Shown here: one piece after another, positions 4,015 through 5,758 of the stretch | Position numbering within the stretch: position 1 is the stretch's first letter | Layout: the number at the start of each line of letters is the position of its first letter | Origin: Picrophilus oshimae DSM 9789 | GTDB lineage: Archaea; Thermoplasmatota; Thermoplasmata; Thermoplasmatales; Thermoplasmataceae | DNA length: 64,000 nt | Direction: 5' to 3' | Assembly (NCBI RefSeq): GCF_900176435.1 | Contig: NZ_FWYE01000001.1 | Span: forward strand, 62,001-126,000 | Notes under the pieces: model-generated | Told to the model about the DNA's origin: nothing | What the model saw: the letters and a program-made list of their open reading frames with translations, nothing else | Databases searched by the model: none | Program-made: the position numbers and the translations under genes

Positions 4015-4101
4015 GCTGGGATAGCCTAGCCCGGTAAGGCGGTAGACCCGAAATCTACTGCTCTCTGTAGCTCGGGAGTTCAAATCTCCCTCCCAGCGCC
4101 A
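4015..4101 (+). tRNA. tRNA-Ser (anticodon CGA), CCA encoded
   Basis: The acceptor stem GCTGGGA pairs with TCCCAGC (4091-4097). There is a long class II variable arm, a T-arm GGGAG-TTCAAAT-CTCCC, and an anticodon stem GTAGA/TCTAC holding the loop CCCGAAA. The anticodon is CGA, reading UCG. The discriminator is G and CCA is encoded. The base before the anticodon is C rather than the nearly universal U33. Confidence 0.9.
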
Positions 4102-4136: not shown

Positions 4137-5090
4137 TTATAATGAGACCTTACCAGGTACCTTTGGGAATGGATTTGTATCCTCTATCCTCTCAAGACCG
4201 CAGACATACCTTGTAAACCTTTCAATGCCTATGCCAAAGCCTGCAGACATCTTTATACCGTGCCTTGCAAGTTCAATAAACCATTTGAACTGCTCCTCTG
4301 TTTGGCCTTTCTTGTGTATCCTTTCTATTATTCTTGGCAGCTCATATTCCCTCTCGCCGCCGGATGATGCTTCCTGGTATCCTTCCGGCCATATTAAATC
4401 CATGTCCCTTAGTATTCCGGGCTTATCATCGTATTCACGATCATAGAATTCCCTTGCCTCTAATGGTATATCTATTAACCATACAGGCTCCTTTGATTCC
4501 ATTGATAGCTCGCGCTCAAAGTCCTTTCCATATTTTTTCTCGGCCTCCATGTACGTGATCTTCCGGAATGGCTTCTTGAAATCTGGCAGTGACCTCTTAA
4601 AGAATTTAAGCTCATCTGCATCGTTTTCCTTTATCTTTTTTATTGTGTATATAATGAGATCTTCTGCCAGATCCATCATCTCCTCCCTGGTCTTTTCAAG
4701 AGCCTCGATATCGACCTGAGTGAATTCGTAAAGGTGCCTGCCAGTCTTGGACTTTTCCTCAACCTCAAGCCTGATGTTTGGTGACATTATAAATATCTTT
4801 TTTAATGACTGAACTGCAATCTGCTTATGGAAGATCATGCTCTTTGTAAGCCATAGGTCACCGCCATATGCACTTATCTTTGGATCATAAACAGGATGGT
4901 TTAATGGGTCTGTTAACGGCGATATTATTACAGGAGGTATTTCTATATAGCCTTTTCCCCTAAGGAACTCTGATATGTATCCGCGTATATCACTGCCAAC
5001 CTTTATTGCATGCCTGACCTTCTCATCGCCGAGATGCTTTAATGAGTATTCTATCTCATTCTGTACATATTCTTCAATATTCATTGACAT
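4137..5090 (-). CDS. Archaeal asparagine synthetase related to AsnRS (AS-AR type)
   Basis: 317 residues forming only the catalytic core of a class IIb aminoacyl-tRNA synthetase. Motif 2 lies around SPNIRLEVEEKSKTGRHLYEF and motif 3 is GFGIGIERFTRY. There is no N-terminal OB-fold anticodon-binding domain, so it should not charge tRNA. Proteins of this architecture in Pyrococcus make free asparagine from aspartate, ATP and ammonia, and that is the most likely role here. It diverges from an Lrp/AsnC regulator across 93 bp, an arrangement that recalls bacterial asnA/asnC. A shortened AsnRS of other function remains possible. Confidence 0.82.
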   Translation of the reverse strand: MSMNIEEYVQNEIEYSLKHLGDEKVRHAIKVGSDIRGYISEFLRGKGYIEIPPVIISPLTDPLNHPVYDPKISAYGGDLWLTKSMIFHKQIAVQSLKKIFIMSPNIRLEVEEKSKTGRHLYEFTQVDIEALEKTREEMMDLAEDLIIYTIKKIKENDADELKFFKRSLPDFKKPFRKITYMEAEKKYGKDFERELSMESKEPVWLIDIPLEAREFYDREYDDKPGILRDMDLIWPEGYQEASSGGEREYELPRIIERIHKKGQTEEQFKWFIELARHGIKMSAGFGIGIERFTRYVCGLERIEDTNPFPKVPGKVSL

Positions 5091-5103
5091 AATATCATAA
5101 GCA

Positions 5104-5134
5104 TTTTTGAATTAATAAACATTTTAATCAAAAT
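5104..5134. promoter_or_regulatory. Candidate operator: imperfect inverted repeat between asparagine synthetase and Lrp genes
   Basis: TTTTTGA (5104-5110) and TCAAAAT (5128-5134) form an inverted repeat around the probable leftward TATA element (revcomp TTTATTAAT, about 5111-5119), itself about 26 nt before the asparagine synthetase ATG. A protein bound here would block that promoter. The arms are AT-rich and could arise by chance. Confidence 0.35.
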
Positions 5135-5152
5135 AATAAACAAAAATAGTTT

Positions 5153-5161
5153 TATTTAAAT
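5153..5161 (+). promoter_or_regulatory. TATA box of the Lrp/AsnC gene
   Basis: TATTTAAAT is centred about 27 nt before the ATG at 5184, consistent with a leaderless transcript. Confidence 0.5.
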
Positions 5162-5183
5162 ACTTCCTTGTCATTTTGTTTTA

Positions 5184-5627
5184 ATGCTGGACAAGGTTGA
5201 TAAGAAGGATATGGAGATTATATCATATTTAAGGGATCATGGCCGTGATAAGATATCTGATATTTCGAACAGCCTTCAGATACCAAGGGCCACGGTTTTT
5301 GAAAGGATGGAGCGTTTAAGAAAGGAGGGCTTTATAAAAAAGTACACTGTTGACCTTGACTATGAAAAGCTTGGTTATTCAGTTATGGCATACATATTAA
5401 TAGAGTACGATTCCAAGGCAAAGGTGGATCAGAAGACACTTTGCAGGAATCTTGCCGCAATGGAAAACGTAATATCAGCATCCATAATAACAGGAGACTG
5501 GGATATAATAATATTGACTGTGCAGAAATCAATGAAGGATCTATCAGAATTTGTCCTTGAAAAGCTTAGAACAATGGACGGCGTCCAGAGATCGCAGACA
5601 ATACCAATATTTGAAAGGATTTTATAA
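5184..5627 (+). CDS. Lrp/AsnC-family transcriptional regulator
   Basis: A 147-residue feast/famine regulator. The N-terminal winged helix-turn-helix (residues 5-60) includes ISDISNSLQIPRATVFERM. The C-terminal RAM ligand-binding domain begins near VMAYILIEYD and contains ITGDWDIIILTV. Such proteins assemble as dimers and octamers and sense amino acids. Its divergent partner is the asparagine synthetase-like gene, so local control by asparagine or a related ligand is a reasonable inference. tRNA-Ser(GGA) follows 40 bp downstream. Confidence 0.92.
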   Translation: MLDKVDKKDMEIISYLRDHGRDKISDISNSLQIPRATVFERMERLRKEGFIKKYTVDLDYEKLGYSVMAYILIEYDSKAKVDQKTLCRNLAAMENVISASIITGDWDIIILTVQKSMKDLSEFVLEKLRTMDGVQRSQTIPIFERIL

Positions 5628-5666: not shown

Positions 5667-5749
5667 GCTGGGATAGCCTAGCCTGGTAGGGCGCAGGTCT
5701 GGAAAACCTGTGCTGAAATAGCTCGGGAGTTCAAATCTCCCTCCCAGCG
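5667..5749 (+). tRNA. tRNA-Ser (anticodon GGA)
   Basis: The acceptor GCTGGGA pairs with TCCCAGC. The D-arm, T-arm and acceptor are nearly the same as in the tRNA-Ser at 4015. The anticodon stem CAGGT/ACCTG carries the loop CTGGAAA with normal U33, giving anticodon GGA for UCC/UCU. It has a class II variable arm and a G discriminator. A full CCA is not encoded. Confidence 0.93.
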
Positions 5750-5758
5750 CATTTGCAG

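Follow-up and report, generated by a model that had tools for sequence, protein, structure and literature searches.

A divergent archaeal asparagine synthetase and Lrp/AsnC-family gene pair, a probable counterpart of the bacterial AsnC-asnA control pair

The divergent pairing of an Lrp-family regulator gene with its target is a familiar arrangement (PMC2995911), and for most archaeal regulators of the family the targets and ligands are unknown (reviewed in PMC2995911). In E. coli, asnC and asnA are divergent with 151 bp between the genes, and AsnA is a paralog of the class II aminoacyl-tRNA synthetase (aaRS) core (PMC3532385). In the Sulfolobales, the pair formed by BarR and an aminotransferase gene has been studied experimentally and is an archaeal example of a divergent region from which both genes are controlled (PMC10201364). 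The nearest solved relatives of the synthetase described here, 1nnh and 3p8t, are AsnRS-related asparagine synthetases of Pyrococcus.

The locus lies in a 64,000-nucleotide stretch of the Picrophilus oshimae DSM 9789 genome (G000:C1:62001-126000), referred to in its entirety as the window. Two open reading frames, at the coordinates and on the strands given in a preliminary description of the region, are divergent with 93 bp between them; as in E. coli, an Lrp/AsnC-family gene is divergent from the gene of a predicted ammonia-dependent, class II aaRS-derived asparagine synthetase. The leftward gene (4137-5090, minus strand) encodes a 317-residue protein that was described as an AsnRS core lacking the anticodon-binding domain, and this is borne out: the class II D/K/N catalytic core (PF00152) occupies residues 13-311, Pfam reports no other domain and specifically no AsnA domain (PF03590), and the NCBIfam model NF005054 ('asparagine synthetase A') scores 470 bits against a cut-off of 309. 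The two Pyrococcus structures match at 196-201 bits over residues 25/28-313, and the enzymes are alike in being members of one family that match over their full length and lack the anticodon domain. Unlike the Pyrococcus enzymes, members of the window's clade have no WPDPG-type insert after TDPL. The class II motif 2 and motif 3 arginines are retained, the segments SPNIRLE and GxGIGIER being invariant or almost so in alignment A1. On these matches the product is an archaeal asparagine synthetase (AS-AR).

The rightward gene (5184-5627, plus strand) encodes a protein of 147 residues with an N-terminal winged helix-turn-helix (PF13412, HTH_24; 32.8 bits against a cut-off of 21.9) and a C-terminal RAM domain (PF01037, AsnC_trans_reg; 50.7 bits against 25), and by these domains, its subfamily tree and its signature (Q83 and G-[DE]-W-D at 104-107) it is an Lrp/AsnC regulator. 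The best-scoring NCBIfam regulator model is LysM (NF040947), at 74 bits and far under its cut-off of 180, and unlike LysM the window pair has no lysine genes beside it.

The enzyme is likely the only source of free asparagine in the host genome. A separate full-length AsnRS is present (G000:C2:134502-135779, 506 bits against a cut-off of 414), a Pfam search finds no AsnA, and there is no sign of AsnB, as the genome gives only weak matches to PF00733; with AsnRS present and AsnA and AsnB absent, AS-AR is the probable supplier. A single protein carries a GatB_N domain, in a 594-residue frame that has the size of GatE, not GatB. Elsewhere in the order a full AsnB occurs in only five genomes; a renewed search found no AS-AR of any type in four of these and no type I/II AS-AR in the fifth, G014. 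Five genomes of genera g23 and g24 (G006, G009, G012, G013 and G016) have AsnRS, and profile searches found neither AS-AR nor a full AsnB in them. In g23 and g24 genomes that lack AS-AR the Lrp matches are all distant, and the two of these placed in the tree (L277 and L289) fall outside the group of linked regulators described below.

Within the order the pair is the rule. Among 117 genomes sampled at the order level, 82 carry a total of 83 type I/II AS-AR copies, and these are linked to an Lrp gene in 78 of the 82 copies that can be evaluated, 74 of the 83 being divergent from the adjacent Lrp gene and four, all in genus g25, convergent with it. The five unlinked type I/II copies include one at a contig end (G107) and four in genus g6, where both genes are present and lie apart from each other. 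The pair is conserved in other Thermoplasmatales, and the concern that it might be unique to this strain can be set aside. The convergent g25 genes (L112, L111, L117 and L121) are 17-23 bp apart, a layout that leaves them no common control region, yet the genes stay together. Some genomes, G117 (L226, L146) and G105 (L031, L087) among them, have two divergent modules in which each AS-AR has its own Lrp. Other AS-AR types are arranged in the same way: the AS-AR is Pyrococcus-like in three g20 genomes and DPANN-like in four g9 genomes, and each is divergent from an Lrp gene.

In the window the pair is flanked on the left by a tRNA-Ser(CGA) gene (4015-4101, plus strand) and on the right by a tRNA-Ser(GGA) gene (5667-5750, plus strand), both conserved in clade I genomes. 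At the old locus in genera g7, g8 and g9, the tRNA-Ser(CGA) gene, a clade I Lrp gene and the tRNA-Ser(GGA) gene remain, and AS-AR is missing from between the tRNA genes. The loci on which these two observations rest are L049, L051, L071, L020, L022, L023, L135 and L137. The idea that the g9 genomes became asparagine auxotrophs after losing AS-AR was rejected when a broader profile search turned up a further AS-AR type in them, paired with its own Lrp.

The linkage extends far beyond the order. We searched named genomes with an AS-AR profile and took the best 80 of 360 matches, which are not a random sample and of which 73 loci have enough flanking sequence to evaluate. In 37 of the 73 evaluable loci among these best 80 of 360, an Lrp gene lies upstream of AS-AR at a distance of at most 300 bp and is divergent in almost every case, and no other Lrp gene was found within 4 kb of AS-AR at the evaluated loci of this set. 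The linked loci among the best 80 of 360 matches belong to about ten archaeal phyla, among them Nitrososphaerota, Bathyarchaeota, Thermoproteota, Geothermarchaeota, Heimdallarchaeota, Aenigmatarchaeota, Nanobdellota, Microcaldota and Thermoplasmatota. When the 36 divergent linked loci from the best 80 of 360 are compared with one another, the Lrp gene is common to 561 of 630 locus pairs, and any of four flanking genes is common to just 18 of 630. Thermococcales, Aigarchaeota-type and Thorarchaeota AS-AR genes in the same best 80 of 360 are unlinked, so that the Thermococcales differ from the window in having no adjacent Lrp; in the Thermococcales and Aigarchaeota genomes examined the Lrp is kept elsewhere in the genome. 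The regulatory type of pairing proposed for an AsnRS-derived synthetase and an Lrp/AsnC gene is thus strongly supported, and in about ten phyla rather than in the Thermoplasmatales alone.

In a tree that includes paralogs from the same genomes, every linked Lrp groups together, on one side of a branch with a support of 94 when ambiguous rows are left out. L278, L280 and L285 had been included as paralogs, yet the tree placed all three inside the linked group, and each was later found to adjoin an AS-AR gene missed before, an unplanned confirmation of the group. Its members also share a signature in the RAM domain: Q83 is present in 58 of 61 linked Lrps and in 5 of 36 other Lrps, W106 (within G-[DE]-W-D) in 42 of 61 linked Lrps and R129 in 47 of 61. 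An effector domain conserved from phylum to phylum suggests that the subfamily has one ligand in common, asparagine being the natural guess.

The two genes also share their history. Clade I AS-AR proteins accompany clade I Lrps and clade II accompany clade II with no exceptions in the trees, and the two genes are correlated by a Mantel test (r=0.80, 0 of 2000 permutations). Partner exchange within the order is unneeded, since the AS-AR and Lrp clades match. A stronger argument than tree agreement, some of which the species phylogeny alone would give, comes from transfers and replacements. In both genes, the pair of G005 (family f2) is nearest to that of genus g15, which belongs to another family, and the g20 relatives of G005 carry a different AS-AR/Lrp pair. 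In the AS-AR tree and in the Lrp tree alike, the g9 pair clusters with Micrarchaeota-like sequences, and g9 appears to have gained the two genes together. Foreign AS-AR genes thus appear to arrive with their own Lrp, the pair moving between phyla as a unit.

The 93 bp that separate the genes (5091-5183) are about 58% identical overall among the genera compared. Conservation is concentrated in two TATA-like elements and above all in TGTCATTTTG (5169-5178), beside the Lrp start. A probable synthetase TATA element (GTTTATTAAT, minus strand, about 5111-5120) lies about 26 nt upstream of the AS-AR ATG and a probable regulator TATA element (TTTAAATAC, plus strand, 5155-5163) about 25-26 nt upstream of the Lrp ATG. 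Both are kept in genera g1, g2 and g5, and conservation in three genera thereby backs the synthetase TATA box of the preliminary description. With both elements about 26 nt from the start codons, both transcripts are probably leaderless. The inverted repeat that had been placed around the synthetase TATA box (5104-5134) fares otherwise. Its arms form 9 of 11 pairs, and arms as good arise in 2000 dinucleotide shuffles of the same 93 bp with P=0.75 (P=0.98 when it is scored as a 31-nt palindrome); in two sister genera only 2-7 of the 11 positions pair. The stretch is AT-rich and shuffles give equal arms, so the repeat is at chance level, and as a candidate operator it is rejected on the shuffle result and the lack of conservation outside the genus.

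Perfect 10-nt palindromes counted over all intergenic regions are barely more frequent than in shuffles, and for this reason the operator search used a profile constrained to be palindromic, with five genera for training and others held out for testing. The trained palindrome, TAGACATWATGTCTA, recurs in the held-out genera, reaching p<=0.01 in many of them, and the distance from the beginning of a match to the AS-AR start codon is often 44-47 nt (circular-shift P=0.02). When this palindrome, trained on genera other than that of the window, is sought in the window, the highest-ranking match is TTGTCATTTTGTTTT (5168-5182; p=0.02, range 0.02-0.04), which is the best operator candidate. It has a degenerate right half, its core is the most conserved 10-mer of the region, and it occupies the position at which other archaea have TTG-N9-CAA palindromes, 2 nt ahead of the Lrp start. 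Judged by the distances from TATA element to start codon, it would cover the Lrp transcription start site. The alignment hints at a second, upstream operator position in sister genera (TGTTATTAAAACA), corresponding to 5138-5150 in the window, where the sequence would be a largely decayed copy with its AAACA half retained.

In other archaeal phyla, 1.7 of 33 intergenic regions would be expected to contain the TTG-N9-CAA palindrome and 18 do; in 10 of the 18 its end is no more than 15 nt from the Lrp start. Three Nanoarchaeota loci (L191, L193 and L202), from genomes of about 0.4-0.5 Mb, retain the AS-AR/Lrp pair and have TTG-N9-CAA palindromes in an intergenic region of 200 bp. Perfect module II sites number 0-3 per genome, and in 6 of 18 genomes one is at the AS-AR/Lrp locus. 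A wider regulon for the module II operator was considered and set aside, the few other perfect sites lying mostly within genes. We note that at L305 (G105) a perfect module II palindrome near 1501 overlaps the start region of a gene judged from its sequence to encode an APC-type permease. At L063 (G082) an orphan clade I Lrp gene (1900-2343) has upstream of it a gene (2-1249) judged in the same way to encode an APC-type amino-acid permease. Uptake genes are possibly second targets of the regulator.

Drawing together the gene identities, the pan-archaeal linkage, the co-inheritance and joint transfer and the operator-like palindromes in relatives, all established here at the level of sequence, we think it quite probable that the locus is a self-contained control module for asparagine biosynthesis, in which the Lrp would be a dedicated, autoregulated and probably asparagine-responsive local regulator of AS-AR. 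A plausible scenario is that AS-AR would convert aspartate, ATP and ammonia to free asparagine, which would feed AsnRS, and that the Lrp protein would occupy palindromes lying between the two genes. It would repress its own gene through the operator over its own transcription start and would set AS-AR transcription from one or more sites upstream of the AS-AR TATA box. The signal would most likely be asparagine, and by analogy with BarR and AsnC, AS-AR would be activated when asparagine is low.

An alternative, which we regard as unlikely, is that the Lrp is a broader amino-acid or nitrogen regulator with AS-AR as one of many targets and an effector such as aspartate, glutamine or lysine. Clade I Lrp genes without an adjacent AS-AR at the tRNA-Ser locus of g7, g8 and g9 and elsewhere in g17, the APC-type permease gene (sequence-judged) upstream of the Lrp gene in G082, and the position of LysM, at 74 bits and under its cut-off, as the closest NCBIfam model are what such a regulator might leave. 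Set against this, perfect module II sites are rare (0-3 per genome) and six genomes have one at the AS-AR/Lrp locus; no clear second set of metabolic targets is seen among them; and the effector-domain signature (Q83, G-E-W-D and R129) is kept in linked members from many phyla. Since the regulator persists without an adjacent AS-AR in g7, g8, g9, g14 and g17, it may nevertheless have targets besides AS-AR. Neutral conservation of gene order, by which descent and a common promoter region would account for the adjacency with no regulatory link, is highly improbable: the flanking tRNA-Ser genes are also conserved within clade I, so that synteny alone explains some of what is conserved locally, but across phyla the pair persists where the flanks do not (561 versus 18 of 630 pairs), adjacency outlasts the change of orientation in g25, each AS-AR type has its own Lrp and g9 seemingly acquired both at once, and palindromes lie between the genes.

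Under the local-regulator reading, AS-AR becomes the probable target of one recognizable Lrp subfamily and asparagine its probable ligand, and candidate operators come with them. The subfamily spans the Thermoplasmatota to the Asgard archaea and DPANN archaea with very small genomes such as Nanobsidianus. The pair also offers a test of whether a metabolic enzyme and its sensor move together in evolution, and of whether asparagine control had one origin or two. The enzyme family and the divergent Lrp-target layout are already known; no report of the archaeal AS-AR/Lrp pairing was found in the searchable literature, which is incomplete in that subscription journals are missing.

Comparison with the known systems places the pair more closely. 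The preliminary description took the E. coli pair to be AsnC beside asnA, an unrelated protein performing the same reaction. The divergent arrangement, with its 151-bp spacing, stands, but 'unrelated' is too strong for an enzyme that is itself a class II aaRS paralog (PMC3532385); in sequence comparison the likeness of AsnA (PF03590) to AS-AR is limited to the motif-3 stretch. The regulators differ as well: the window regulator scores 68.3 bits with the AsnC equivalog model NF008384, under its cut-off of 227, and E. coli AsnC lacks the Q/GxWD signature of the linked subfamily. That the pairing arose independently with a different enzyme, as was proposed, agrees with the best tree, in which AsnC falls outside the linked archaeal subfamily, but the test does not reject a tree in which the two are joined (p-AU 0.54). 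We consider it quite unlikely, and put it forward as speculation, that archaeal AS-AR/Lrp and bacterial AsnA/AsnC descend from one ancient divergent unit of an aaRS-derived synthetase and an Lrp sensor; if they do, asparagine control by Lrp predates the split of the domains and in archaea the module travels between phyla. BarR resembles the window regulator in organization, as an archaeal Lrp-family gene divergent from a metabolic target, and there several operators lie between the genes and serve control of both the regulator itself and its target; it differs in that the target is an aminotransferase and the effector beta-alanine (PMC10201364). By analogy, the best reading is that the window regulator would work like AsnC at asnA or like BarR, from within a different Lrp subfamily. 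Given that the two genes are found together in many archaeal phyla and seem to pass between them as a unit, the pair is probably the archaeal counterpart of the bacterial AsnC-asnA control pair.
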